Shown in pieces: positions 2,693-17,068 of a DNA stretch of 64,000 nucleotides. Position 1 is the stretch's first letter. Every line of letters starts with the position of its first letter. The notes under the pieces are model-generated. The model was not told the DNA's origin and did no database searches. It saw only the letters and a program-made list of their open reading frames with translations. The stretch comes from Paracoccus sp. (in: a-proteobacteria) (GTDB lineage Bacteria > Pseudomonadota > Alphaproteobacteria > Rhodobacterales > Rhodobacteraceae), in NCBI RefSeq assembly GCF_030604785.1, contig NZ_JAUVVF010000004.1, positions 62,001 through 126,000 on the forward strand. Direction: 5' to 3'. Both the position numbers and the translations under genes were made by a program.

Positions 2693-5125
2693 TCAGGTCT
2701 TGGGGCCGTCGGCGTTCAGCAGGCGCTCAAGCGCATCGACACGGGCCTTCGTCAGGGCCTGCGCATCGGGCGGGGTCACGCCCGCCCATCCCCGCTCAAG
2801 CGCGGCGTCGGTCGAAAATGCACCGGCCCGTCTGATCGCGGGCAATTCGTCCCACCCCACCGGGCAGGCCACCGGCGCGCCGGGGCGGGCGCGGACCGAA
2901 AAGGGGGCGATGGCCGTCGCGCCACGTTCGTTTCGCAGCCAGTCGATGAAGATGCGCCCCTCGCGCCGGGCCTTGGCCATCTGCGCGGTGAACCGGCGCG
3001 GCCAGCGCGTCTCGGCCAGATGCGCGACCCCGCGTGAAAAGAGCTTGAGCGTTTCCCATCCCGTCTGGCGCCTCAGCGGCACGATCAGATGAATGCCCTT
3101 GCCGCCCGACAGCATCGCCCAGCAGGCAAGGTCCAGTTCCGCCAGAAGATCGCGAAGGTCCAGCGCCGCCCGGCGGGTCGCGGCAAAGCCCAGCCCCTCG
3201 TCCGGGTCCAGGTCCAGAACCAGCCGGTCTGGGCGGTCCAGACGGTCGCGCCGCGCACCCCATAGATGGAACTCGACGCTGCCCATCTGCACGGCTCCGA
3301 CCAGACCCGCCGCATCGGTGACATACGCATAGGGCGCGCTTTCGCCATCGGATTGCGGGATCTGCACCACCTTGACGGCAGAGGGAAAGCCCTTGCCCGG
3401 ATGCTTCTGAAAGAACCGCTCGCCCTCCAGCCCCTCGGGCAGGCGCAGCAGGGACAGGGGGCGGTCGGCGATCTCCGGCAGCATCAGCGCCGCGGCGGCC
3501 TCGTAATAACGGGCCAGATCGGCCTTGGTCAGCCGGGGCTTGGGAAAGATCGCCCTCTCGCCGCTGCTCAGCGCGATCCCGGCAATCGTCTCGCGGTCGT
3601 TCATCGGCGCGGGCTCCTCATGCTGGATGGTCTCGGCGGGCTTGTCCTCGCGCAGGCCCAGAAACACCGCATGGCGCAGGCGCCCCGAGGCGGTGATCTC
3701 GGCATAATCGACCTCGACCGCAAAGGTGGGGCTGATCCAGCGCGCGCCCGACGTTTCGGATGACGGCGCGTCCAGCGGCGCCGTCTTGCGGGCCAGAGGC
3801 CGCATCCGTCGGGCCAGATCCGCCATGGCCTGCGAGTCGAACCCGCTGCCGACCTTGCCCATGTAGCGCCAGCCCTTCCCCTCCCGCGCCGCCAGCAGCA
3901 GCGAGGCGAAGGGGCGCGCGCGGCTGTCCGAGGGCTGCCAGCCCACGACCACATATTCGCCCCGACGCCTGCACTTGATCTTGAGCCAGTCCCGCCCCCG
4001 GCCGCTGCGATAGGGCGCGTCATGGCGCTTGGCGATCAGCCCCTCGCCGCCCTGCCCGCAGATCAGCGTCAGAGCCTCGTCCGCTGGACCCTCGATCACC
4101 GGAGAGAGGGTCAGCGGACCCATCGGCGGCAGCGGCTCGAACAGCGCCTCGAGTGCTGCGCGGCGCTTGCTCAGGCGCTGCGTCCTCAGGTCACGGCCGT
4201 CAAGCCGCAGAAGGTCGAAGCCCACGAAGCGGAACGGCCCCCCTGCCCCGATCGCGTCCTGCAGCGCGCCGAAACCGGACAGTCCCGCCCCGGCCACGAT
4301 CTCTCCGTCGATCAGCGCGGATTTGCAGGGCAGATCGTCAAAGGCGGGCAGCAGATCGGCGAAGCGATCCGACCAGTCATGGCCCGACCGGGTGAAGATG
4401 CGCGTGCCCCCCGCGCCGATAGCGACCTGCGCACGATATCCGTCAAGCTTGAGCTCGTGCCAGACATCGTCCCCGGCGGCCGCCTCGTCGGTCAGCGTGG
4501 CAAGCTGCGGCGCGACCGGGCGCGGCGTCTGCCCCGCGCGCGCCGGCGCGACCGGCCCGTGACCCGAGGCGATCTGCGCCATTCTGCGCCCGGTCGCAAC
4601 GCTGGTCCGGTGCCGCGCCACCGGGTCGGGACCACCCGCCGCCTCGTCCTGCTGCTTGATCAGCAGCCAGTTCTCGCGCCCCTGGTCCGAGGCGCGCCCC
4701 TTGATCCGCACGAGGTTCCAGTCGCCCGTCAACCTCCGCCCGTGCAGCCGCATCCGCAGATGGCCCTTGGCAAGCCCCCCTGCGGCCGGTTCCAGCGGCT
4801 GCCACCAGCCCAGATCCCACAGCATCACGCTGCCCGCGCCGTAATGACCCTGCGGGATCACGCCCTCGAAGCGCAGATATGAGATCGGGTGATCCTCGGT
4901 CCGCACGGCCAGGCGTTTCTCGGACGGGTCCAGCGAGGGGCCGCGCGTGACTGCCCAGCTCAGCAGCACGCCCTGCCATTCCAGCCGCAGATCCCAGTGC
5001 AGGCGCGTCGCGTCGTGGTTCTGCATGCTGTAGCGCAAGGCCAGCGCCGAGGGCTGGCCGGGATCCGAGGGCTCGGGCGTCGCCGCAAAGTCGCGCCGCG
5101 CGCGATATCGCTGAAGCCCGGCCAT
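2693..5125 (-). CDS. ligD: Multifunctional ATP-dependent DNA ligase LigD
   Basis: End-joining ligase acting with Ku on double-strand breaks. Three modules are visible in the order phosphoesterase, ligase, polymerase. The 3'-phosphoesterase has NHDATRLHWDLRLEW and GVIPQGHYGAG. The adenylyl-transferase has the active-site Lys in HELKLDGYR (about residue 226) and GEGLIAKR, with an OB fold after it. The primase-like polymerase has LVLDLDPDEG, LSGGKGIHLIVPL and FIDWLRNERG. About 810 residues, normal for the family. The ATG at 5125 is chosen because MAGLQRYRARRDF matches the usual N-terminus and lies 1 base after the ku stop; an upstream ATG at 5170 would overlap ku by over 40 bases. Confidence 0.97.
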   Translation of the reverse strand: MAGLQRYRARRDFAATPEPSDPGQPSALALRYSMQNHDATRLHWDLRLEWQGVLLSWAVTRGPSLDPSEKRLAVRTEDHPISYLRFEGVIPQGHYGAGSVMLWDLGWWQPLEPAAGGLAKGHLRMRLHGRRLTGDWNLVRIKGRASDQGRENWLLIKQQDEAAGGPDPVARHRTSVATGRRMAQIASGHGPVAPARAGQTPRPVAPQLATLTDEAAAGDDVWHELKLDGYRAQVAIGAGGTRIFTRSGHDWSDRFADLLPAFDDLPCKSALIDGEIVAGAGLSGFGALQDAIGAGGPFRFVGFDLLRLDGRDLRTQRLSKRRAALEALFEPLPPMGPLTLSPVIEGPADEALTLICGQGGEGLIAKRHDAPYRSGRGRDWLKIKCRRRGEYVVVGWQPSDSRARPFASLLLAAREGKGWRYMGKVGSGFDSQAMADLARRMRPLARKTAPLDAPSSETSGARWISPTFAVEVDYAEITASGRLRHAVFLGLREDKPAETIQHEEPAPMNDRETIAGIALSSGERAIFPKPRLTKADLARYYEAAAALMLPEIADRPLSLLRLPEGLEGERFFQKHPGKGFPSAVKVVQIPQSDGESAPYAYVTDAAGLVGAVQMGSVEFHLWGARRDRLDRPDRLVLDLDPDEGLGFAATRRAALDLRDLLAELDLACWAMLSGGKGIHLIVPLRRQTGWETLKLFSRGVAHLAETRWPRRFTAQMAKARREGRIFIDWLRNERGATAIAPFSVRARPGAPVACPVGWDELPAIRRAGAFSTDAALERGWAGVTPPDAQALTKARVDALERLLNADGPKT

Positions 5126-5126
5126 C

Positions 5127-5963
5127 TCAGGCCGACTTCTTGCCGCGACCGCGCGGTTTGGCGCCGCCATCCTTCTTGAGGCTCTCCTTCAGCGCCGACA
5201 TCAGATCGACCACATTCGTCGCGCCTCCGCCGCGCGGCTCGTCGCCATCCCCCAGTTTGGCGCGCGGGGTCTTGCGGCTCTTGCGCTTGGCCTCGATCAG
5301 GGCGCGCAGGGCCTCGTCGTAATGGTCGCGGAACACGCCCGCGTCGAAGGGCGACGACTTGCGGCGGATCAGCTGGGTGGCGACATCCAGCAGGTCCTCG
5401 TCGCTGGTCTGGTCCTCGATCCCCGAGAACAGGGGCGCGGCCTCGCGGATCTCGTCCTCGTAGCGCAGGGTCTCCAGCAGCAGCCCATCGCCGCAGGGGC
5501 GGATCGCACACAAATATTCCCGCCCCCGCATCGTCAACTGGCCAAGCGCGGTTTTGCCCTCGGCCCGCAACGCATCGCGCACCACGCGATAGGCATCCTG
5601 CGCCAGATCGTCCGAGGGGATGACGTAATAGGGCCGGTCGAAATAGAGCGGCGAGATCTCGCCCTGATCGACGAACTGGACCAGTTCCAGCGTCTTGCGC
5701 GTTTCCAGCTTGATGGCGTCGATATCCTCGGGCTGCAACAGCAGGTAATCGCCCTTGCCCAGCTCGTAGCCCTTGAGGATCTCGTCCGACTTGACCGGTC
5801 CGACGCCGGCCACCGTCTTTTCGTAGCGCACCGGCTTGCCCGAAGGGCCGTGGATCTGCCGAAAGGACAGCCGTGCCCCGGATCGCGTGGCCGGGTGCAG
5901 TTCGACGGGAATGGCGACAAGGGACAGGCGAAGCTGACCTTTCCAGACGGCGCGTGAAGCCAT
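5127..5963 (-). CDS. ku: Non-homologous end-joining protein Ku
   Basis: Homodimeric ring that binds DNA ends and recruits LigD. 278 residues starting MASRAVWKGQLRLSLVAIPV, the classic bacterial Ku N-terminus, with the beta-barrel/bridge core (LLLQPEDIDAIKLETRKTLEL, YFDRPYYVIP) and a Lys/Arg-rich C-terminal tail that in the family aids DNA threading and LigD contact. The ATG at 5963 follows GGAGG by 5 bases; an in-frame 41-residue upstream extension is not conserved in type and was dropped. Co-transcribed with ligD with a 1-base gap. Confidence 0.97.
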   Translation of the reverse strand: MASRAVWKGQLRLSLVAIPVELHPATRSGARLSFRQIHGPSGKPVRYEKTVAGVGPVKSDEILKGYELGKGDYLLLQPEDIDAIKLETRKTLELVQFVDQGEISPLYFDRPYYVIPSDDLAQDAYRVVRDALRAEGKTALGQLTMRGREYLCAIRPCGDGLLLETLRYEDEIREAAPLFSGIEDQTSDEDLLDVATQLIRRKSSPFDAGVFRDHYDEALRALIEAKRKSRKTPRAKLGDGDEPRGGGATNVVDLMSALKESLKKDGGAKPRGRGKKSA

Positions 5964-6160: not shown

Positions 6161-6916
6161 TCAAGCCGGCTGCGGGCGCGGCAGGGTGAAGACCGAACCA
6201 AACTGCGCCAGCGGCCCGGTCGGGATGCCCAAGCGGGTCAGGCAACCCCACAGCGTCACCGCCACGCTGTCCAGAACCGGCACGCCCGTCTGGGCCTCGA
6301 CCGCCGAAGCAACCATCGCGCCGCGCATGTTCGTGCAGACGATGGCCAACGCCTCGACACCGGCCGCCACGTCCCGGCACATCCGGGCGATCTGTTCCTC
6401 GGGCAGGGTGGAAAAGGCGAAATTGTCGGTCAGTCCGGCATGGGTCTCGGTCACGATCTCGATCCCGATCCGGGCGTAATTGGCGATGATGCGGGCCTGG
6501 ACGTCAGCGGTGTAGGGTGTCACCAGCCCCAGCCGCCGGATGCCGCGCTGTTTCAGCCAGAGGTTCAGTTCAAGGATCGCGCTGGTCGCGGGCAATCCGG
6601 TGCGGCCGGTGATCTCGGCGCAGAGCGCCTCGTCGCGATCGAAACCCAGCCAGCTTGCGGATGTGCCGTTCCAGGCGATCACGGCGGGACGCGCATCGGC
6701 CAGCAGCTCGGCGGCGGCGAGGATCGGCTCTTGCCGGAATTGCAGGTCGGATGCGTCGCCAAGCGCGATCTGCGTGACCCGGAAGCGCGCGAAATGCGCG
6801 CTGACACGGTCCGCGACCGGCGTCAGCAGGGCTTGGGTCAGCGGTTCAAGGGCGCTGTTCGAGGATGGCGTGAGCATCCCCAGCCGGATGTCGGGAACCG
6901 AACCCGACAGCGTCAT
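6161..6916 (-). CDS. Asp/Glu racemase superfamily; arylmalonate decarboxylase / maleate isomerase-like
   Basis: 251 residues. LGMLTPSSNSALEP at the N-terminus and the PY and CTNMRG segments place it in the maleate cis-trans isomerase / arylmalonate decarboxylase branch of the Asp/Glu racemase fold. Family members use two opposed cysteines for racemisation or isomerisation. Here the second is present (Cys194 in AIVCTNMRG) but the first position is Gly84 (AWNGTSAS), the Gly-plus-single-Cys arrangement known for arylmalonate decarboxylase. A decarboxylase acting on a substituted malonate is therefore a better guess than a racemase, but this is inference. The start at 6916 has AAGGA 4 bases upstream; ATG 6928 is an alternative. 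Last gene of the leftward arm of the heterocycle island. Confidence 0.75.
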   Translation of the reverse strand: MTLSGSVPDIRLGMLTPSSNSALEPLTQALLTPVADRVSAHFARFRVTQIALGDASDLQFRQEPILAAAELLADARPAVIAWNGTSASWLGFDRDEALCAEITGRTGLPATSAILELNLWLKQRGIRRLGLVTPYTADVQARIIANYARIGIEIVTETHAGLTDNFAFSTLPEEQIARMCRDVAAGVEALAIVCTNMRGAMVASAVEAQTGVPVLDSVAVTLWGCLTRLGIPTGPLAQFGSVFTLPRPQPA

Positions 6917-6956
6917 GTGGTCCTTCATGCGGTGATCCCGAAGAATGGCGTCAGGC

Positions 6957-7679
6957 CTAATGCGCCGCAAGGGCGGCGACGACCGAACGGCCGGTGGACA
7001 GAAGATGGTCGCGCCAGATCGCGGCCGCGGCATCCGGCGCGCCGGCGCGGATCGCGGCCATCAGCGCCTCGTGTTCGCGCATGGCCTGATCCCAACGCGC
7101 CTCGTCCATGATCGCCATGTAGCGGCCGCGCCGGGCGCGCAGCATCAGGCGGCGGTGGCTTTCGACAAGGACCGGATTGCCCGAACCCTCGACGATCAGG
7201 TCGTGGATGGTGCTGTTCGCGTCGAAATAGGCGTCCAGCTGGCGATCGTGATATAGCTGCGTCATGCGCTGGTGCAGCTGCTCCAGCCGGGAAACGGCGC
7301 CGGGATCGGCGCGCCTGACGAAGCATTCGGCGGCCATCGCCTCGAGCCTTGCGATCACGTCGAAGAGGCATTCGGCCTCGGCCGCTCCATAGGCGGCGAC
7401 CCGCGCGCCCCGATTGCGGCTGATCTCGATCAGCCCGTCCTGGCGCAGGAGCTTCAGCGCCTCGCGCATGGGCGTCCGCGACACGCCCAGAGACAGGCAA
7501 AGCCGCCTTTCCACGATGCGTTCGCCCGGCTGCAGCTGGCCCCGGATCACCATGTCGCGGATCCGGGCTGCGACCTGTTCGGCCAGCGCATCGCCGCCGT
7601 CCGGGGCGTCCTCGGGCAGGTCATCGATCGGGGCGGCGGCAGGGGCGCCGAGGCTGTCGTCACTGTCATCGGCGCTCAT
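6957..7679 (-). CDS. GntR family regulator, FCD (FadR-like) subfamily
   Basis: About 240 residues. Winged helix-turn-helix near the N-terminus (MVIRGQLQPGERIVERRL, SLGVSRTPMREALKLL: the GntR signature), followed by an all-helical FCD ligand domain whose metal-binding His/Asp residues are suggested by D-x-N-STIHDLI and the REHEALMAAI segment. FCD regulators respond to small organic acids, often the substrate of the neighbouring pathway. It probably controls the divergent catabolic island. A GTG at 7739 would give a GTGA overlap with the preceding gene and 20 more residues; the ATG at 7679 is chosen with moderate certainty. Confidence 0.9.
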   Translation of the reverse strand: MSADDSDDSLGAPAAAPIDDLPEDAPDGGDALAEQVAARIRDMVIRGQLQPGERIVERRLCLSLGVSRTPMREALKLLRQDGLIEISRNRGARVAAYGAAEAECLFDVIARLEAMAAECFVRRADPGAVSRLEQLHQRMTQLYHDRQLDAYFDANSTIHDLIVEGSGNPVLVESHRRLMLRARRGRYMAIMDEARWDQAMREHEALMAAIRAGAPDAAAAIWRDHLLSTGRSVVAALAAH

Positions 7680-7735: not shown

Positions 7736-9277
7736 TCACAGCCGCGAACTCTGGCGATAGAAGGGTTCATGCCGCGCGGGATCGATGTAATCGGCGTAGA
7801 AACGGCGCGCATGGGGCAGAAGCAGGCGCGACAGGTTGCGCCGTTCGGCCTCGTCATCAGAGAGCGCACGCGCCATGTCGTCATGCAGCGCCTTCAGCGT
7901 CCCGGCCTGATCGATGCGGGTGAAGCGGCCGTCCTGATACAGCGTCTCGCCGTCGCAGATGACGCGGGTGACGCCATGCGTCTTGGCGCGCTGGATCACC
8001 GCGTCCAGAACCGGTGTCAGCGGGTCCAGATAGGGATAGCTGACATGGCGCCAGTCGATCATCACCAGATCGGCCGCGCGCCCGACCTCGAGCCGGCCGA
8101 TGCTGTCGCCAAAGGATGTGGTGCGCGCCCCGCCCTCGGTCGCCATGCGCAGAACTTGGGGCATGGTCGGCACGTCCTCGTCGATCATGCCGGGCACGCG
8201 GTGGACGCGGGCGACCAGCCGCATCTCGTTCAGCATGTCGCGGTCGTCGTTCACCCCGGCCTCGTCCAGCCCGATCGCGGTGTTGATGCCGCGCGCCTCG
8301 AGATGGTTCAGGGCCGCGATCCCCGAGCGAAGGCGGAAGTTCGACGAGCAATTGTGGCAGACGCAGGCACCCGCGGCCGCCAGCTTGTCCATGTCGCCTT
8401 CGTTCAGCCAGACGCCGTGGCCAAGCGTCAGGCGCGGCGACAGAAGGTCGAAGCGCTCGATGTAATCGACCGCCGTGCAATTGCCGCGCCGCCAAGCATA
8501 TTCCTTCTGATAGGCCGTCTCCAGCAGGTGCATGTGCAGGGGCGCATCGTATTTGCGCGACGTGTCCGACAGCGCGCCGAGCGCCTCGTCCGAACACCAG
8601 TGCAGGTTCGCGGGCGCCAGCTGGATGCGGACGCGGGGCTTGTGGTTATGGGCCTCGTGCAGGTCGCGAAACAGCGACAGGCTGTCCTGAAGCCCGACCT
8701 GGAAGCGGCCGAACCAGCGCTTCATCGGCTCGCGCAGTTCCGGGGGCAGGCTGGCCACGAATTCGTCGTCATCCTGATAGACCAGCCGGTTCTGGTCGCG
8801 CACCGCATAGCAATACGACACGCGCATCCCGATATCCTCGTAGGCGCGGATCACCTGTTCCGAGAGCGCCTTGACCTCCTCCAGCGGGCCGGGCAGCCAG
8901 CCGTGAATATGCTGGACCGTGGTCGTCCCCGAGCCGATCATCTCGAAGGCGGAATAGAGCGTGTCCAGATAGAGGTTCACATTCCGCGTCACCATGCGGG
9001 TGATGAACCAGAGTTCCAGCGGCATGTCGGGCGAGCCAAGCTGAAGCGGCGTCAGCCCGACATGATGATGGCCGTTGACGAAGCCGGGCAGCACCACCTC
9101 TCCGCCCGTGCCGATCACCTCGGCGCCGGGATTGCGGTCCTTCAGGCGGTCGAAATCGTCGATGGCAGTGATGATGCCGTCCTCGACCAGCAGGGCGCCG
9201 CCCTCGATCTGGCCGATCTCGTGGCGACCCTGCGCGCCCGTGATCAGGGTATGGCTGCGGATGATGCTTGCGGTCAC
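7736..9277 (-). CDS. AtzA/TrzA/SsnA-type metal-dependent amidohydrolase
   Basis: 513 residues. A mononuclear-metal TIM-barrel hydrolase of the chlorohydrolase/aminohydrolase branch: NGHHHVG (ligands His70, His72), HMHLLET (His250, Glu253), GHGVWL (His287) and GLDEAGVND (Asp338) give the full ligand set. Such enzymes remove amino or halide groups from ring carbons of purines, pyrimidines, triazines or hydantoin-like rings. GTG start supported by AGGA 8 bases upstream; an ATG close by is out of frame. It lies between the ABC ATPase and the GntR gene, consistent with the first intracellular step on an imported N-heterocycle. The exact substrate is not deducible. Confidence 0.9.
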   Translation of the reverse strand: MTASIIRSHTLITGAQGRHEIGQIEGGALLVEDGIITAIDDFDRLKDRNPGAEVIGTGGEVVLPGFVNGHHHVGLTPLQLGSPDMPLELWFITRMVTRNVNLYLDTLYSAFEMIGSGTTTVQHIHGWLPGPLEEVKALSEQVIRAYEDIGMRVSYCYAVRDQNRLVYQDDDEFVASLPPELREPMKRWFGRFQVGLQDSLSLFRDLHEAHNHKPRVRIQLAPANLHWCSDEALGALSDTSRKYDAPLHMHLLETAYQKEYAWRRGNCTAVDYIERFDLLSPRLTLGHGVWLNEGDMDKLAAAGACVCHNCSSNFRLRSGIAALNHLEARGINTAIGLDEAGVNDDRDMLNEMRLVARVHRVPGMIDEDVPTMPQVLRMATEGGARTTSFGDSIGRLEVGRAADLVMIDWRHVSYPYLDPLTPVLDAVIQRAKTHGVTRVICDGETLYQDGRFTRIDQAGTLKALHDDMARALSDDEAERRNLSRLLLPHARRFYADYIDPARHEPFYRQSSRL

Positions 9278-9321: not shown

Positions 9322-10137
9322 TCAGTCGCCCATCCCCTCCTGTTCGGCGAAGGCGCGGTCCACCTCGTCGCGCAGAAGCGCGGTCAGCTGGCGGCGCAGC
9401 GCCTCGGCCTCGGGCGAGAACGGGTCGCGCGGGCGGGGCAGCGGGTTCTCGACGATGGTCTTGATGCGGCCGGGCCGAGAGGTGAAGACCACGACCCGAT
9501 CCGAAAGGGCCACGGCCTCGTCAATGTGGTGCGTCACGAACAGGACCGAGGCGCCGCTTTCGCGCCAGACATCCTGCAGGAAATCCTGCATCTTCTGCCG
9601 CGTCTGCACGTCCAGCGCGGCGAAGGGTTCGTCCATCAGCAGCACCTTGGGCCGCATGGCCAGCGCCCGCGCCACGGCCACGCGCTGGCGCATGCCGCCC
9701 GACAATTCGTCGGGCCGCTTGTCCATCGCGCTGACCAGCCCGACCTCGCGCAGGGCCTCGAGCGCGGCGGCGCGGCGCTCCTCGCGGCTGGCGCCCCGGA
9801 TCGACAGGCCGAAGGCCACGTTCTCCCAGACCGTCAGCCACGGATAGAGCGAGGATTCCTGAAAGATCAGGCTGCGGTCCGATGACGGCCCCTCGACCGG
9901 GTCGCCGAAGAAGTTGATCACCCCCTCGGTCGCGTCCTCTAGCCCCGCGATCAGGTAAAGCAGCGTGCTTTTCCCGCAGCCCGACGGCCCCAGCAGCACC
10001 ACGAACTCGCCCGGCCGGATGTCGAGGTCGATCCCGGTCAGGGCCAGATGCGCGCGCGGCGTGTCCGGCGCCCAGGTCTTGCCCACACCTCGGCAGACCA
10101 CCGCATCGCGGCTGGAGAAGCGGTAGTCAGAGGGCAT
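9322..10137 (-). CDS. ABC importer ATPase (nitrate/sulfonate/taurine type)
   Basis: 271 residues. Walker A GPSGCGKST, signature LSGGMRQR, Walker B VLLMDEPFAALD and the H-loop THHIDEA are all intact. The sequence style (RSLIFQESSLYPWLTVWENV) is that of SsuB/TauB/NrtD ATPases. Its start overlaps the permease stop by 11 bases, so the two are translated together. It powers uptake for the importer encoded with the two following genes. Confidence 0.93.
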   Translation of the reverse strand: MPSDYRFSSRDAVVCRGVGKTWAPDTPRAHLALTGIDLDIRPGEFVVLLGPSGCGKSTLLYLIAGLEDATEGVINFFGDPVEGPSSDRSLIFQESSLYPWLTVWENVAFGLSIRGASREERRAAALEALREVGLVSAMDKRPDELSGGMRQRVAVARALAMRPKVLLMDEPFAALDVQTRQKMQDFLQDVWRESGASVLFVTHHIDEAVALSDRVVVFTSRPGRIKTIVENPLPRPRDPFSPEAEALRRQLTALLRDEVDRAFAEQEGMGD

Positions 10138-11053
10138 GGCGGGTTCCTTTCTCGGGCAGCCAGTAAAGCAGCCGGCGTTGCAGGATGCGCAGGGCGTAAT
10201 CGGTCAGGAAACCAAGCGCCCCGATCAAGGCGATGGTGAAGAAGACCAGCGAGGGGTTGAACGTGTTGCGCGCCAGCATGATGATCTGGCCAAGTCCGTG
10301 GCCCACGCCCGTCGTCTCGGCGACCAGCACGACCATCCACGCGCCGAACAGGTTCAGCCGCAGCACCATCAGCATCGCAGGCAGGATCGCCGGAATGATC
10401 ACGCGCAGATAGACCTGCCGCTTGGTCGCGCCCATCGTGCGCGCGACATGGATCAGGTTCACCGGCACGTTGTCGATATGGGTGACGGTCGCCAGCACCA
10501 TGTGGAAGAACAGCGCGATCACCACCATGAAGACCGCCGGGCCGTTGCCGATGCCGAACAGGAACACCGCAACCGGCAGCCATGCGATGGGCGAGACCGA
10601 CGACAGCAGCATGATCGTCGGCATGGTCAGCCGGTCGAACAGCCGGAAATAGCGCGCCAGCACCCCCACCGACACGGCAAGGACGGAGGCAATGACAAGG
10701 CCCGCGATGACGCGCGCCATGGTGGACAGGACGGTCGTGACCAGCGATTGCAGGCCCGACGGGGCCTCGGCCTGCGAGACGCCGACCGCCCAACGGGTCG
10801 CCGTGTTGAAGAACTGGATCTGGTTGGGAATATCACCCAGAAAGATGTGCGGCGGCGGCAGCAGCTTGGGATCGGACCAGCCCATCAGCCAGCAGAATTC
10901 CCAGATCAGCGCGAAAAGGCCAAGCGAGGCGATGGTCCAGCCGACCGAGCGCAGTCCCGCGCGCAGCCGGTCCGGGGCGATGAAGGTCGGGCGCAGCCGG
11001 GCGCGCAGGGAAGCCCCGCGCGCACGGCCCTGATCGGGTGCGATCTCTGCCAT
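10127..11053 (-). CDS. ABC importer permease (SsuC/TauC-like)
   Basis: 308 residues with about six membrane segments and the EAA-type cytoplasmic loop (RTMGATKRQVYLRVIIPAIL) that docks the ATPase. The C-terminal region GVGHGLGQIIMLARNTFN is typical of the BPD transport family for sulfonates, nitrate and N-heterocycles. The ATG at 11053 overlaps the stop of the binding-protein gene (TGATG), which fixes the start; the longer open frame upstream is a shadow. Relatives of this importer type also carry pyrimidine precursors and hydantoins. Confidence 0.9.
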   Translation of the reverse strand: MAEIAPDQGRARGASLRARLRPTFIAPDRLRAGLRSVGWTIASLGLFALIWEFCWLMGWSDPKLLPPPHIFLGDIPNQIQFFNTATRWAVGVSQAEAPSGLQSLVTTVLSTMARVIAGLVIASVLAVSVGVLARYFRLFDRLTMPTIMLLSSVSPIAWLPVAVFLFGIGNGPAVFMVVIALFFHMVLATVTHIDNVPVNLIHVARTMGATKRQVYLRVIIPAILPAMLMVLRLNLFGAWMVVLVAETTGVGHGLGQIIMLARNTFNPSLVFFTIALIGALGFLTDYALRILQRRLLYWLPEKGTRHAL

Positions 11054-12132
11054 CAGGCCGACTTGAACTTGAGCGAGCCGTATAGCTCGGGGTTTTCGGC
11101 GATGACCTCTTCCAGGAGGGACCAGTCGATCGCGTCGCGGCCGGGCTTGTTCTTGATGTAGCCCATCTCGGCCACGCTCTCGACGCGTTCCAGGATGAAA
11201 TCGGTCTGGCTGCGGGCATCGACGACGGCGGGCTGCTTCTGCATCGCCACCCGCGCGTTTTCCATCGAGGTCTTGTAATAGGTGCCCACGACCTTGCCCA
11301 GAACCGTCTCGGGATCGGCCTCGGCGATCTGCTGTGCGCGCATCATGCCCTTGATCAGCGCCTTCAGCGCGTCGGGACGTTCGGTGATCAGATCGGTCCG
11401 CGCAGCCAGCACGCAATCGGTGTAACCCGGGCCATACATGTCCGTGCCGTCGGTCAGAAGATGCGAACCCGGCACGTCGTTCAGCAGGGCCGAGGCATAG
11501 GGCTCGATCGTGCAGAAGATGTCGATGGCACCTGCCTTGAAGGTCTCGGCCGCCTCGGCCATGCCGCCCAGATAGCGGATGTTGACGTCGTTGAACGAGA
11601 TGCCGTGCTGCTTGAGGTAATCGTAGGGCATCACCTCCAGCGTATCCATCTGGAACGTGCCCAGCACCTTGCCCTTCAGCTTTTCGGGCGTATCGAGGCC
11701 CGGCTGCGAGACCAGCGCGCAGCCCTCGATTCCGCCGCCCGCGATGATCGTGACCGGCACGCCTGCGTCATAAAGCGCCATGAAGCTGGTATAGGGCGTC
11801 AGGCCGATATCGACCGCACCGGTCCCCAAGAACGTCACCTGATCGGCGAAGGTCGGCGTGTTGATGAATTCCAGATGCAGCCCGTCCTCGGCGGCCAGCT
11901 GCTCGGCATGGGTCAGGAACAGGTTGAGGTTGCAGAAACCCGCGCCATGGGTCGATTTCAGCTGCTCGCCCGCGGCCAGGGCCTTGCCTGCCAGCCCGCC
12001 CGCCACAGCCATGCTCAGCGTCATGGCGCCCGAGGTCTTCAGAAAGCCGCGCCGGTTCAGACGCGGTGCGCAGAGCCGGGCCGAGGCCAGTCCGTCGCGC
12101 GTGATCAAGCCGTGATGGTCGCACATTGGCAT
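11053..12132 (-). CDS. ABC substrate-binding protein (NMT1/SsuA-like), Tat-exported
   Basis: 359 residues. A twin-arginine signal (LNRRGFLKTSGAM, residues about 24-36, then a hydrophobic stretch ending GKALA) indicates export of a folded protein. The mature part has the NMT1/SsuA fold pattern (VDIGLTPYTSFMALYDAGVPV, GKVLGTFQMDTLEVM). A start at 12132 has GGGAG 3-4 bases upstream; ATG 12126 is equally possible. It is the first gene of the leftward arm, divergent from the racemase-like gene. The substrate is probably the same cyclic nitrogen compound handled by the surrounding enzymes (inference). Confidence 0.9.
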   Translation of the reverse strand: MPMCDHHGLITRDGLASARLCAPRLNRRGFLKTSGAMTLSMAVAGGLAGKALAAGEQLKSTHGAGFCNLNLFLTHAEQLAAEDGLHLEFINTPTFADQVTFLGTGAVDIGLTPYTSFMALYDAGVPVTIIAGGGIEGCALVSQPGLDTPEKLKGKVLGTFQMDTLEVMPYDYLKQHGISFNDVNIRYLGGMAEAAETFKAGAIDIFCTIEPYASALLNDVPGSHLLTDGTDMYGPGYTDCVLAARTDLITERPDALKALIKGMMRAQQIAEADPETVLGKVVGTYYKTSMENARVAMQKQPAVVDARSQTDFILERVESVAEMGYIKNKPGRDAIDWSLLEEVIAENPELYGSLKFKSA

Positions 12133-12494
12133 TGTCTCCCTGTCCGCGCCCGTTCTGTGCCAGGGCGCCTGTTGCGCTGTCGCGGGCGGTTCCCGCGACC
12201 GGTCGCCTCGGGGGGCGACAGGGACAGGCTTGCGACAGGATGGAATGCAATCCAAGCATAATTTGGCATTCCATCGGCAATTCCCGCCCCACCGGCCCGA
12301 CATGCCGCCGATGCGGGCAGAGGGCGCGATGCGCTGGCTTTCTTGGCTAATTCTCGGGCAGACCAACGCTGCAACCGGACAATCGAGCGCCTTCCCGGCC
12401 TCGGCGCCGGATTGCAGCAACGCAGAATCAGCTTTGAGATTCAGATTTGGCATGCCAAAGTGACCGACAAGATCGAGCCCCTTTTCAGGTCATC
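12133..12494. promoter_or_regulatory. Divergent control region of the heterocycle island
   Basis: 362 bases without a gene between the two arms. It holds a perfect 14-base palindrome TTTGGCATGCCAAA at 12446-12459, and a near copy TTTGGCATTCCATC at 12262-12275. The latter forms the right half of a larger dyad ATGGAATGC-N17-GCATTCCAT (12240-12274). Two matching sites near the two transcription starts suggest a common regulator for both arms, most likely the GntR protein of the island. No other structure was recognised. Confidence 0.6.
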
Positions 12495-13271
12495 ATGCAT
12501 ATTCTGATCGTGAACCCGAATACATCCACCAGCCTGACCGAACGGATGGAGCGCGCCGCGCGCTGTCAGATCCCCGCCGATGTGACCCTGTCCAGCCGGA
12601 CCGCGCCGCGCGGTTTTCCCTATATCTCTAACCGCGCCGAGGCGCAGGTGGCGGGTTCCGTCACGCTGGAGATGCTGGCCCGGCAGGGGACGGGCACCGA
12701 TGCGGCCATCGTCGCGGCCTTCGGCGATCCGGGCGCCCGCGCGGCCCGGGACCTGAGGCCCTTTCCGGTCATCGGCGTGGCCGAGGCGGCGATGCACAGC
12801 GCCGCCATGCTGGGCGAGCGGTTCGGCATCCTGGCCTTCTCGCGCCAGATGCAGGGCTGGTATCGCGACTGCGTGCACCAGGTCGGGCTGGAGCGGCGCT
12901 TCGCCGGCTTCCGCGCCCCGGCCGTCGCGCCGCGCAGCCCCGACACCGCGCAGGAGGATCTGCACGACGCGCTGCTGGACTGCCTGCGCGATTGTCAGGA
13001 TCGCGACGGGGCGGATGTCGTGATCGTCGCGGGCGCGCCGCTGGCCGGCTTTGCGACGCTGGCCGCCGGCGAGACGCGGCTGCCTCTGGTCGATCCCGTG
13101 ATCGCGGCGCTGCATCAGGCGGTCGCCCTGTCCCGCCTGGCCGCGCGGCGGGGCAGGCATGAACGGGACGATCCCAAACCCTCGACGGGGCTCGATCCCG
13201 AGCTCGCGGCGCTGTTCCTGGCGGGCAGCCCGCATCCGCGCGCCAATGGCCGCGCAGGGGGCAATCCGTGA
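12495..13271 (+). CDS. Asp/Glu/hydantoin racemase-fold protein lacking both catalytic cysteines
   Basis: 258 residues. MHILIVNPNTSTSLTERM and AAFGDPGARAARDL are hallmarks of the hydantoin/allantoin racemase family. Known racemases use two cysteines, in ACFGDPG and LGCAGM. Here both positions read Ala: Ala75 in VAAFGDPG and Ala181 in VAGAPLAG. The codons (GCG at both) were read directly. It is therefore unlikely to racemise by the two-base cysteine mechanism; it may bind a ligand, catalyse a different step or belong to a separate subfamily. The start at 12495 fits the conserved N-terminus. First gene of the rightward arm, with a GTGA overlap to the next gene. Confidence 0.85.
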   Translation: MHILIVNPNTSTSLTERMERAARCQIPADVTLSSRTAPRGFPYISNRAEAQVAGSVTLEMLARQGTGTDAAIVAAFGDPGARAARDLRPFPVIGVAEAAMHSAAMLGERFGILAFSRQMQGWYRDCVHQVGLERRFAGFRAPAVAPRSPDTAQEDLHDALLDCLRDCQDRDGADVVIVAGAPLAGFATLAAGETRLPLVDPVIAALHQAVALSRLAARRGRHERDDPKPSTGLDPELAALFLAGSPHPRANGRAGGNP

Positions 13272-14320
13272 GCGCCCTCTTCGACCGGGCGCGCGACGAA
13301 GCCTGCGCGGCCGAATGCGCCTGGCCCCGGGACCTGCGCGCGGTGATCGAAAGCTGCAGCTTCGATCCGCCGCCCTGGAATGTCGTGCTGGGCCCGGTCT
13401 CGGATCGCGGGGCGGCATCGGGCACGGTGATGCAGGATGGCAGGAGCATGTCGGCCTGGGGGCCCTGCGACCGCGCGGACATGGCCTTCAGCGTGACGAA
13501 AAGCTATATCGGGCTGCTGGCCGCGTTGGCACTGGATCGCGGCCTGATCGCGGATTTCGACGAGCCCGTCTCGGCCCGGATCGGGGATGAGGCCTTTGCC
13601 GATGCCCGCAACCGGCGCGTGACATGGCGGCACTTGCTGGACCAGACCAGCGAATGGGGCGGCACGCTGTTCGGTATCCCCCATAGCGTCGACCGCGATC
13701 GCCAGCTTGCACCGACCGAGGATGGCAGCAGGATGAACCGCGCCACCCCCCTGCAGCAGCCGGGCAGCTACTGGGATTACAACGACACCCGGGTGAACGC
13801 GCTCTGCCTGGCGCTGACGCTGCTGTTCGGTCAGCCCCTGCCCGCGATCCTGGCGGGACTGCATCCAGCCTTTGCGGATCGGTCGCGCTGGCATTGGGAC
13901 GGATACGGCTCCCGCAGCACGATCCCGCTGAACGGCGCGGCGGTCGAGATCGTGGTCGGCGGGGGACATTGGGGCGGAGGCATGGTCGCGGCGGTCGATC
14001 ATCATCTGGCGCTTGGCGGCATCTTCCTGGGCGGCGGGCAGCATGACGGCCACCGCGCCGTGACGCCCGAGGCGCTGGAGGCGCTGCTGCGGCCCTGCCC
14101 GTTGCAGCCTGTCTATGGCGGGCTCTGGTGGCTGAACGACAGGCGGCGGCTTTATCCGGACCTGCCCGGCGACAGCGTTCTGGCGATGGGCGTCGGAGCC
14201 AACGTCATCTGGGTCTGCCCGTCGCTCGGGCTGGTCGCCTGCCTGCGCTGGCTGCGCCCGGACGCGGTGGCGCCGGTGCTGGGGCAGCTGGCCGAGGCCG
14301 CCGAACGAGGCAGCGCATGA
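13268..14320 (+). CDS. Serine hydrolase, beta-lactamase / penicillin-binding-protein fold
   Basis: 350 residues, no signal peptide, so cytoplasmic. The nucleophile motif S-x-x-K is Ser75-Val-Thr-Lys78 (FSVTKSY), a Tyr-containing second motif lies at YWDYNDTRVN (Tyr171), and a glycine-rich GGGHWGGG strand takes the place of the KTG motif. This matches class-C-like hydrolases such as esterase EstB and 6-aminohexanoate-dimer hydrolase, which cleave esters or non-peptide amides. GTG start in a GTGA overlap with the racemase-fold gene; its stop overlaps the amidase start (ATGA). Inside this operon an amide- or lactam-cleaving role is likely, but this is inference. Confidence 0.85.
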   Translation: MSALFDRARDEACAAECAWPRDLRAVIESCSFDPPPWNVVLGPVSDRGAASGTVMQDGRSMSAWGPCDRADMAFSVTKSYIGLLAALALDRGLIADFDEPVSARIGDEAFADARNRRVTWRHLLDQTSEWGGTLFGIPHSVDRDRQLAPTEDGSRMNRATPLQQPGSYWDYNDTRVNALCLALTLLFGQPLPAILAGLHPAFADRSRWHWDGYGSRSTIPLNGAAVEIVVGGGHWGGGMVAAVDHHLALGGIFLGGGQHDGHRAVTPEALEALLRPCPLQPVYGGLWWLNDRRRLYPDLPGDSVLAMGVGANVIWVCPSLGLVACLRWLRPDAVAPVLGQLAEAAERGSA

Positions 14321-15690
14321 ACGCGATCCCGGATCTGGTGGCGCGCATCCATGCCGGCGACGCCGCGCCCGACGAGGCCGTCCGGGCCGCGCAGCAGCGG
14401 ATCGCAAGCCTGAACCCGACCCTGAACGCCATCGTCGATCACGACCCCGACGTGGTAGAATCTCAGGTCGCCGCGCTGTCCCTGCGGCTCAAGGCCGGCG
14501 AAAGACCAAGGCTGGCCGGGGTTCCGGTCACGGTCAAGGATCAGTTCCATGTGGCGGGCTGGCGCGTCACCGAGGGCTCGGCGCTGCTGGCCGATCGTGT
14601 CGCGCGGAGGGACGAGCCGATCATCGCCAGGCTGCGCCGGGCCGGGGCCATCATCCTTGGCCGCAGCAACATGTCGGAATTCGGCTGCAAGGGCGTCACC
14701 GACAACCGGGTGCACGGCGCGACGCGGCATCCGCTGGATCATCGCCTGACGCCCGGCGGATCGTCAGGCGGGGCAGCGGTCGCCGTGGCGACAGGGATGG
14801 GTCTGCTGGCACTGGCGGCGGATGGCGGCGGGTCGATCCGACGGCCCGCGGCGCATGTGGGCGTGGTCGGCTTCAAGCCCTCGACGGGGGCGCTGCCACT
14901 GGGGACGGGGCTGTCCCATACCGCCGTTCCCGGGCTGATGGCCAGCGACGTGGCCGGAATCGTCACGGCCTTCGACGCCCTGCGCGGCGCCGAGGCGCTG
15001 GACCCGGTCTCGGTCGATCTGCCGGCACGGGGCGGAGGTCCGATCGCGCTGACCTTTGGCTGGGCGCCCGACCTGGGGCTTGGCATCCGCCTAGACGACG
15101 CCGCGCGCCAGGCCGCCGAACGGGCGCGCGACAGGATCGCGGCAGCGGGCTACCGGCTGCGCGCCATTCCGCCCCGCTGGCCCGAGGGCGCCTGCGAGGC
15201 CGCACTGATGCCGCTGCAACATGCCGCGCTGGCCGCGCGGTGGGGCCGCCAGTGGCAGAATACGCCGGACCTGTTCGATCCCCATATCGCCGAGCAGATC
15301 GAGGCGGGGCTTGCCCTGAGCGGCTGCGATCTGGCCCGTGCCGACATGCTGAGCCGCGACATCGCCCGCGCGGCGGCAGGCTATTTCGCGCAGGGGCCGG
15401 GCCTGCTGCTGGCGCTGACCGCGCCCTGCGCGGCATGGCCGCTGGACCGGCTTGGCCCGGCGCGGATCGGCGGCGCGCCTGCGGGACCGCGCGATCATGC
15501 GGCGCTGACGCCTCTGGTCAACCATGCCTTCCTGCCTGCCATCTCGATCCCGTGCGGGCGCGATGCGGCGGGACTGCCCTTCGGGCTGCAGATCATCGGG
15601 CCGCGCCTTTCGGACCTGACGGTCCTGCGGGCCGCGATGGCACTGGCGCCACTGGTCGATGATAGGGAAAGGACACGCGATGAAGCATGA
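14317..15690 (+). CDS. Amidase signature family enzyme (GatA-like)
   Basis: 457 residues. The Ser-cisSer-Lys triad is complete: Lys74 (VTVKDQF), Ser149 in GGSSGG, Ser173 in [10 protein letters not shown], with the 24-residue spacing found in characterised amidases. The rest follows the amidase signature fold ([33 protein letters not shown]). It would hydrolyse a linear amide, carbamoyl or ureido group to acid plus ammonia. ATG overlaps the preceding stop (ATGA) and its end overlaps the hydantoinase start by 11 bases. Likely acts after ring opening. Confidence 0.92.
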
Positions 15691-17068
15691 CCTGCTTGTT
15701 CGGGGCGGCACGGTCGTCACCGCCTCGGACATTCAAGAGGCCGACATCGCGATCCGCGACGGCGTGATCGTCCAGATCGGCCGCGATCTGGGCCCGGCGG
15801 CGCGGATCGTCGATGCCCAAGGTTGCCACGTCCTGCCCGGCGCCATCGACAGCCACGTCCATCTGGCCCAACCTTCGGGCGACGGGATCGTGATGGCGGA
15901 CGGCTTTGCCAGCGGCACCCTGTCGGCCCTGTGCGGCGGGACGACGACGGTCATGCCCTTCTGCCTGCCCGCGCCGGGCCAGTCGCTGCGGGCGGCGCTG
16001 GCGGATTATCACGCTCTGGCGGACGGCAACCTGCACACGGATGCCAGCTTTCACCTGATCCTGAACGATCCGACCGAGGCTCAGCTGGGTCAGGAGCTTC
16101 CCGCCTTGATCGCCGAGGGATACCGCTCGATCAAGGTGTTCATGACCTATGAGGGGCTGCGCCTGCGCGATGACCAGATCCTGGCCACGATGGATGCCGC
16201 CCGCGCCGCCGGGGCGGTGGTCATGGTCCATGCCGAGAACGAGGACGTGATCCGCCATCTGGCCGACCGGGCCGAGCGGATGGGCGATCTGGTGCCTGCC
16301 GCCCATGCCCGCACCCGCCCTGTCGCCGCCGAACGCGAGGCCACGCATCGCGCGCTGACCCTGGCCGAGGTGACGGATGCGCCGGTGGTGATCGTGCATG
16401 TCTCGAACGGCGAGGCCATCGAGGAAATCGCACGTGCCCGCGCGCGCGGCGTCAACGTGACCGCCGAGACCTGTCCGCAATATCTTGTCCTGACCGCCCG
16501 GGATCTGGAGTCGATGGACTGGTCGGGCGCGAAATATGTCTGCTCGCCTCCGCCGCGGGACGAGGCGCACCAGCAGGCGGTCTGGCGCGCGATCGAGACG
16601 GGCGTCTTCGACCTCTTTTCGTCGGACCATTGCCCATTTCTCTATGACAGCCCGACCGGCAAGCTGAACCGCCGCGGGCGGCAATCCTTTCGCCACGTGC
16701 CGAACGGCATTCCCGGGATCGAGACGCGTCTGCCCATCCTTTGGACGCTCGGCGTCATGGGCGGGCGGATCGACATGATGCGCTTTGTGGCGCTGACCGC
16801 GACCAACCATGCGCGGACCTACGGCCTTTACCCGCGCAAGGGCAGCATCGCGATCGGCGCGGATGCCGATCTGGCGATCTGGGACAGCCGCATCCGGCGC
16901 ACGATCCGTCATGCCGATCTGCACGACGCCTGCGATTACAGCCCCTATGAGGGATTTCGGGCGCAGGGCTGGCCGATGACGGTGATCCTGCGCGGTGCGG
17001 TCGTGGTCGAGGACGGACAGCCCGTCGGGGGACCCCGAGGCCGTTATCTGGGCGATCGCGGGGCCTGA
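15680..17068 (+). CDS. Dihydropyrimidinase/hydantoinase/allantoinase family cyclic amidohydrolase
   Basis: 462 residues. All binuclear-zinc ligands match the hydantoinase pattern: His59 and His61 (DSHVHLAQ), carboxylated Lys152 (SIKVFMTYEG), His184 (MVHAEN), His240 (IVHVSN) and Asp316 (SSDHCPF). The enzyme opens a cyclic amide ring (hydantoin, dihydropyrimidine or allantoin type). The ATG at 15680 follows AAAGGA by 7 bases and overlaps the amidase end. Last gene of the rightward arm. The substrate-loop region (TYEGLRLRDDQ) does not let me choose between hydantoin and pyrimidine. Confidence 0.93.
   Translation: MKHDLLVRGGTVVTASDIQEADIAIRDGVIVQIGRDLGPAARIVDAQGCHVLPGAIDSHVHLAQPSGDGIVMADGFASGTLSALCGGTTTVMPFCLPAPGQSLRAALADYHALADGNLHTDASFHLILNDPTEAQLGQELPALIAEGYRSIKVFMTYEGLRLRDDQILATMDAARAAGAVVMVHAENEDVIRHLADRAERMGDLVPAAHARTRPVAAEREATHRALTLAEVTDAPVVIVHVSNGEAIEEIARARARGVNVTAETCPQYLVLTARDLESMDWSGAKYVCSPPPRDEAHQQAVWRAIETGVFDLFSSDHCPFLYDSPTGKLNRRGRQSFRHVPNGIPGIETRLPILWTLGVMGGRIDMMRFVALTATNHARTYGLYPRKGSIAIGADADLAIWDSRIRRTIRHADLHDACDYSPYEGFRAQGWPMTVILRGAVVVEDGQPVGGPRGRYLGDRGA

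Follow-up and report, generated by a model that had tools for sequence, protein, structure and literature searches.

A conserved lineage of Asp/Glu/hydantoin-racemase homologues that lacks both catalytic cysteines and often lies beside hydantoinase genes

Hydantoin and allantoin racemases of the HyuE/HpxA kind (3qvj, NozR, OpaE) share the PF01177 profile and the NPN and FGDPG motifs, use a Cys/Cys dyad, and can adjoin a hydantoinase. Hydantoin-utilisation (hyu) clusters combine a hydantoinase, a Cys/Cys racemase and an amide-hydrolysing enzyme, the carbamoylase, and the related maleate isomerase NicE likewise has two active-site cysteines. Mutational results bear on both thiols: in the available passages of the NozR study, C75A, C179A and the double mutant gave no detectable interconversion (PMC10156859), and the accessible text on OpaE gives 4.8% left in C90S and 0.3% or less in C199S and the double mutant (PMC12661438). 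The hydantoinase is described, in the portion of the source available, as a classical partner of hydantoin racemase (PMC3546935). Altered catalytic pairs are also on record. Thr replaces one Cys in the aspartate/glutamate racemases EcL-DER and MMP0739, as excerpted (PMC8142540), leaving them one Cys, and arylmalonate decarboxylase (AMDase) has a G74/C188 arrangement, with a G74-T75-S76 motif, in the part of the source at hand (PMC4996985). Finally, the same OpaE text identifies 3qvj as the K. pneumoniae allantoin racemase and 5lg5 as that of P. fluorescens (PMC12661438).

Here we examined a 64,000-nucleotide stretch of a Paracoccus sp. contig (the window), in which the gene at 12495–13271 encodes a member of this superfamily without a cysteine at either catalytic place. 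As the initial annotation had stated, the gene heads an operon-like arrangement, being the first of a tightly packed plus-strand set; its end and the beginning of the next gene share 4 bp, the following two junctions overlap too, and a promoter scan upstream of it returned no site. The features of the locus are:

6161–6928, minus strand: AMDase/maleate-isomerase-like protein, a second superfamily member (PF17645, 70.8 bits; first catalytic Cys replaced by Gly, second kept)
6957–7679, minus strand: GntR/FCD regulator
7736–9277, minus strand: TRZ/ATZ-type amidohydrolase (PF01979), a deaminase/chlorohydrolase relative below every NCBIfam cut-off
9322–10137, minus strand: ABC transporter ATP-binding protein
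10127–11050, minus strand: ABC transporter permease
11053–12273, minus strand: ABC substrate-binding protein, NMT1/THI5-like, transcribed away from the racemase homologue (uncertain start, perhaps 12126 instead)
12495–13271, plus strand: Asp/Glu/hydantoin-racemase homologue free of catalytic cysteines, 258 aa (open reading frame, PF01177, alignment with 3qvj and 5lfd); codon of Ala75 at 12717 and of Gly180 at 13032
13268–14320, plus strand: serine hydrolase of the beta-lactamase family (PF00144, 38.4 bits), overlapping the racemase homologue by 4 bp
14317–15690, plus strand: amidase (PF01425)
15659–17068, plus strand: D-hydantoinase/dihydropyrimidinase (NF009941, 671.4 bits, cut-off 647; start probably ATG 15680)

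Elsewhere in the window, at 2693–5831 on the minus strand, LigD (ligase, phosphoesterase and primase-polymerase domains) lies beside Ku, a bacterial end-joining pair.

The 12495–13271 protein scores above the gathering threshold of PF01177 (139.7 bits, cut-off 31, residues 3–209), with no added domain by Pfam and zero matches in NCBIfam and PHROGs. Its PDB matches at E 0.001 comprise four distinct sequences, 3qvk (94.3 bits), 3qvj (93 bits), 5lfd (57.9 bits) and 2eq5 (29.4 bits), of which, in the alignment, 3qvj has Cys and 3qvk Ser at both catalytic places. Upon alignment with 3qvj, the first catalytic Cys falls on Ala75 (motif AAFGDPG) and the second (LGCGGM) on Gly180 (AGAPLAG), a gapless register because Cys/Gly relatives (LGGAGL, LGGAAL) fix the alignment there. 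The initial annotation had reported both cysteines as replaced by alanine, at 75 and 181, read from GCG codons. Their absence and Ala75 stand, whereas the second site is Gly180, and only Ala181 (13035) is encoded by GCG, the codons of Ala75 and Gly180 being GCC (12717) and GGC (13032). Residue 181 corresponds to the position after the Cys, which is Ala in 22 and Gly in 4 of the 26 Cys/Cys rows tallied, and the Ala/Ala reading was rejected. The NPNTS and FGDPG motifs are kept, as had been claimed, and further cysteines occur at positions 24, 126, 163 and 167. An AlphaFold model built from two input sequences (pLDDT 57.5, pTM 0.51) was too poor for reading the pocket, so that pocket assignments are made by alignment. 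As judged from that alignment, a two-thiol racemase mechanism is unavailable to the protein. The earlier, broader statement that any two-base racemase mechanism is impossible goes too far: 5lfd, identical in sequence to 5lg5, carries Gly in place of the first Cys and Glu three residues later, and Asp78 of the window protein occupies that Glu column. No substitute for the thiol on the second face is evident from the alignment.

Each described type resembles the protein only in part. Where HyuE/HpxA racemases use two cysteines, it has Ala75 and Gly180 together with Tyr43, Arg47, Glu49, Trp122 and Pro182. The P. fluorescens allantoin racemase is alike in having a small residue at the first Cys place and an acidic residue at +3, but it keeps the second Cys and combines Gly, Glu and Cys where the window protein has Ala, Asp and Gly; its Glu is said, in an account attributed to Cendron in 2016, to act as a base. 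AMDase, a superfamily relative, likewise has a small residue (Gly74) for the first Cys but keeps Cys188 and the GTS motif, both absent from the window protein, and a search at E 0.001 did not match the latter to PF17645. EcL-DER and MMP0739 keep one Cys (Thr/Cys), the window protein and its clade none, and the maleate isomerases compared carry PSSN near the N terminus where the window protein has NPNTS and no Cys at the catalytic places. The window genome carries a separate Cys/Cys hydantoin-racemase homologue elsewhere (G000:C27:60522-61202, L002).

To place the protein among its relatives, 295 genomes of the same family were searched, yielding ten orthologues (45–50% identity, at least 182 bits), beyond which the next matches drop to at most 36% identity and at most 94 bits. 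Profile searches covered 125 genomes of the genus, 398 of the phylum and 385 of the class, plus a plasmid collection in which 335 records matched and from which 12 records were taken from among the matches listed (30 of 335). A scan of genome_contigs gave one distant Cys/Cys relative, and a scan of viral_contigs zero relatives. After removal of 12 identical copies, 107 sequences were kept, with the states Ala/Gly in 48, Cys/Cys in 37 (3qvj included), Cys/Gly in ten, Gly/Cys in six and others in six. The Ala/Gly rows, minus four belonging to a separate group, gave a set of 44 that was chosen by state and afterwards tested on a tree of 68 of the 107 rows (44 Ala/Gly, 6 Cys/Gly, 4 odd, 11 Cys/Cys and 3 Gly/Cys), from which both motif columns were omitted and whose root was placed by choice on the Cys/Cys and Gly/Cys rows.

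In this 68-row tree, all 44 Ala/Gly rows fall on one side of a branch (support 98/97) with zero other states inside, and the branch was recovered in 98% of 200 bootstrap trees; the 11 Cys/Cys rows form another group (100/97), and the window protein lies outside it. The statement that all 44 are Ala/Gly is a result only insofar as the tree, built without those columns, admits no other state. Two comparisons free of this circularity agree: 11/11 rows picked by score rather than state are Ala/Gly, as are all 23 genomes whose best profile hit in the genus, phylum and class searches reaches at least 275 bits, the next below being L124, a class-search match at 246.6 bits that is Cys/Gly and outside the clade. 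The tree check suggested in the initial annotation thus does uncover a conserved subfamily, of Ala75/Gly180 rather than Ala/Ala state.

Six sequences (L081–L085 and L124) keep the first Cys and have Gly at the second place, a mirror image of AMDase, and are possible intermediates toward the cysteine-free clade. A second PF01177 group without catalytic cysteines was also seen (L008:2266-2880, L036:11814-12464, L057:689-1336, L075:767-1432 and L016:1486-2178). Four of its five rows are Ala/Gly, of the AAFGDPG/GGGPL kind, and one is Gly/Gly; it stood apart at 99 in a quick tree in which long branches may be falsely joined.

The clade is patchily spread, being carried, with the window genome counted, by 5/125 genus genomes and 11/295 family genomes. 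Carriers extend through Alpha-, Beta- and Gammaproteobacteria to Arthrobacter, and include Salipiger, Methylobacterium, Defluviimonas, Allorhizobium, Rhizobium tropici, Cupriavidus metallidurans, two Paraburkholderia, Diaphorobacter, Klebsiella oxytoca and two Arthrobacter. Between orthologues, dN/dS was ~0.05 to 0.29 in six of eight pairs, dS being not computable in the other two, and the window protein was in none of the pairs. The window protein itself sits on a long end branch (1.09) with a best identity of 47% within the 68-row set, and its mean identity (46.6%) is the lowest of 14 members compared. Among 14 hydantoinases compared, too, that of the window has diverged furthest (57.5%, vs a mutual mean of 62.6% among the others), and this joint divergence favours an old, distinct form of the cluster over decay of one gene. 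A literature search that reached few subscription journals found nothing on a cysteine-free clade; judged from the sequences, the Ala/Gly variant is real and conserved, and it is undescribed within the literature searched.

Loss of the thiols is accompanied by residues of the clade's own. Tyr43, Asp78, Pro79, Glu97, Arg135, Pro182 and Gly185 are invariant (44/44), and Glu49 (43/44), Trp122 (43/44) and Arg47 (42/44) nearly so; the window protein shows the full signature of Ala and Gly at the catalytic places with Tyr43, Glu49, Asp78, Trp122 and Pro182. Tyr123, present as Tyr in only 39/44, was rejected as a universal acid/base. The 11 Cys/Cys tree rows, by comparison, uniformly have Ser at 43, Asp at 49 and Gly at 182. 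The 6 Cys/Gly tree rows share Tyr43 and Arg47 and retain Cys75, and in 4 of them position 200 is Cys, not Asp. These rows fit a scenario in which the second Cys would have been lost first. The Tyr43/Arg47/Glu49 stretch corresponds roughly to lid loop A of OpaE, given as residues 49–59 in the available text (PMC12661438), and its change suggests a different, probably carboxylate-bearing ligand.

We then scanned the flanks of all 44 clade members and of hand-picked controls, 12/37 Cys/Cys and 5/10 Cys/Gly rows, to ~10 kb in either direction or to the contig end where that came sooner, with queries and thresholds picked after the clusters were seen (150 bits for hydantoinase, AMDase-like and polysaccharide-deacetylase-type proteins, 100 for amidase and transporter components, 70 for GntR). 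A hydantoinase homologue lies near 31/44 clade members, compared to 2/12 Cys/Cys and 1/5 Cys/Gly controls, and an AMDase-like gene near 25/44 (window included), compared to none of either control set; the eight AMDase-like queries come from clade neighbourhoods and match themselves, the other 17 having been found by search. Fisher tests of clade against Cys/Cys rows gave P = 0.0005 for AMDase-like genes and 0.0018 for hydantoinases, relatedness being ignored. One or other of these genes occurs near 33/44 members and both near 23/44. Furthermore, amidase homologues (22/44) and GntR regulators (30/44) were found in 0/12 Cys/Cys and 0/5 Cys/Gly neighbourhoods, and transporter components in 42/44 clade, 6/12 Cys/Cys and 1/5 Cys/Gly neighbourhoods. 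Matches below threshold in the Cys/Cys controls were a hydantoinase at 57 bits (L143), an amidase at 94 bits (L150) and GntR proteins at 57–62 bits (L146, L147, L149), and the hydantoinases of the two Arthrobacter are distant (33–34% identity).

Counting against the reading proposed below, 11/44 neighbourhoods contain neither a hydantoinase nor an AMDase-like gene (L033, L034, L037, L100, L101, L102, L109, L136, L137, L139 and L140), L101 and L139 lying on contigs of <10 kb. The L109 orthologue has as neighbours homologues of the window binding protein (51% identity), ATPase (63%) and amidohydrolase (53%). The PF00144 serine hydrolase appears at 55 bits or more in the window neighbourhood only, of the 44, and a relative of it is present in 11 other genomes of the family. 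Ten of the 44 neighbourhoods hold a polysaccharide-deacetylase-type protein (L043:6750-7649 and homologues; PF01522 in L043), a fold that includes PuuE-type allantoinases, which makes this neighbour another ring-opening candidate. At L039:8800-9561, L040:5372-6079, L088:1495-2259 and L011:432-1175, additional PF01177 relatives were noted whose first catalytic residue is Val, Ile or Ala and whose second is Gly or Ala; all but that of L088 adjoin clade members.

All 19 AMDase-like proteins aligned, of the 25 found, have Gly at the first place (WxGT[SA]) and keep Cys at the second (CTN), a layout that matches the AMDase arrangement; therefore the clusters often hold two superfamily members, one with a single thiol and one with none. 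Pfam was run on only 4 of these proteins. The solved relatives of the window's 6161–6928 protein are the maleate isomerase 4fq7 (45.4 bits) and AMDase 2vlb (33.6 bits). Present near 25/44 members only, the AMDase-like protein was rejected as an obligate partner.

Taken together, we give a probability of roughly 0.5 to the reading that the window protein is a thiol-free enzyme with chemistry other than two-cysteine racemisation, working in a catabolic cluster for cyclic amides or ureides. Because mutation of the cysteines stops NozR and cripples OpaE, while the clade has fixed Ala/Gly, kept the motifs and added residues of its own, its members are unlikely to be ordinary racemases. The cluster is similar to hyu clusters in joining a hydantoinase and a racemase homologue to an amide-hydrolysing enzyme, but in place of the carbamoylase and Cys/Cys racemase it has an amidase-signature enzyme, a one-Cys AMDase-like protein and the thiol-free homologue. 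Its gene content suggests that the ring of a cyclic amide, imide or ureide is opened and an amide bond then hydrolysed, with a carbon-acid step of the AMDase-like type. In such a catabolic pathway the ligand of the window protein would be a small acid or an intermediate with an opened ring, its carboxylate probably paired with Arg47. The reaction catalysed would be one that needs no two-face proton relay, for example decarboxylation, isomerisation on one side, or lyase or hydrolysis chemistry. Asp78, Tyr43 and/or Glu49 would supply acid/base function, and the small Ala/Gly pair may also make room for a more substituted carbon. More specifically, and tentatively, the protein could provide one step of an undescribed bacterial cyclic imide/ureide pathway in which hydantoinase, amidase, and the Gly/Cys and Ala/Gly superfamily members act in sequence. 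As substrate routes, the degradation of maleimide and of barbiturate were both weighed, and searches of the maleimide/imidase, barbiturate/AMDase and cysteine-free-member literature gave no matching pathway among the papers listed.

Among the alternatives, a ligand-binding pseudoenzyme would hold a pathway intermediate as a sensor, an allosteric subunit or a partner of the AMDase-like protein or hydantoinase. Loss of both catalytic thiols under conserved motifs is consistent with this, as is the frequent presence of a one-Cys superfamily member; nevertheless, catalysis or specific binding chemistry accounts more readily for the new, nearly invariant ionisable residues, no added domain accompanies the fold, and an obligate pair is unlikely since 19/44 neighbourhoods are without an AMDase-like gene at 150 bits. 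On balance we consider a pseudoenzyme improbable, if worth keeping in view.

A racemase or epimerase acting on an acidic-carbon substrate, for instance a 5-substituted hydantoin, with Asp78 and a second residue (Tyr43, Glu49) or water replacing the thiols, also appears unlikely. It draws on the Gly and +3 Glu of 5lfd, on the invariance of Asp78, on the Thr substitutions in EcL-DER and MMP0739, and on the classical pairing of hydantoinase with hydantoin racemase. However, 5lfd keeps its second Cys where the clade has Gly, with Leu at the matching +3 in 30/31; Asp78 is found in 11/11 Cys/Cys rows as well and is therefore not a compensating change; and the double Ala mutant of NozR shows no activity.

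Catalysis by a relocated cysteine, either Cys126 of the WYxxCV helix (present in the window protein and in 31/44, the highest of any cysteine column) or column 104 (29/44), is very improbable and was rejected, neither column being invariant over the 44 and the window protein having Ala104. A decaying or misassembled copy of an ordinary racemase, suggested by the long end branch and low mean identity, can be dismissed in agreement with the initial annotation, as the reading frame is intact, the genes overlap, the window hydantoinase is also the most diverged of its set, and the conserved clade, with Ala/Gly in 43 other rows, contradicts it.

Two-thiol proton transfer without a cofactor has its standard example in this superfamily, and a widespread, selected lineage without either thiol is a natural test of what else the fold can do. 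Thanks to the recurring neighbours, the class of candidate substrates is narrow enough to be assayed directly, and members of the Ala/Gly clade may be misdescribed by the automatic name "aspartate/glutamate racemase family protein".
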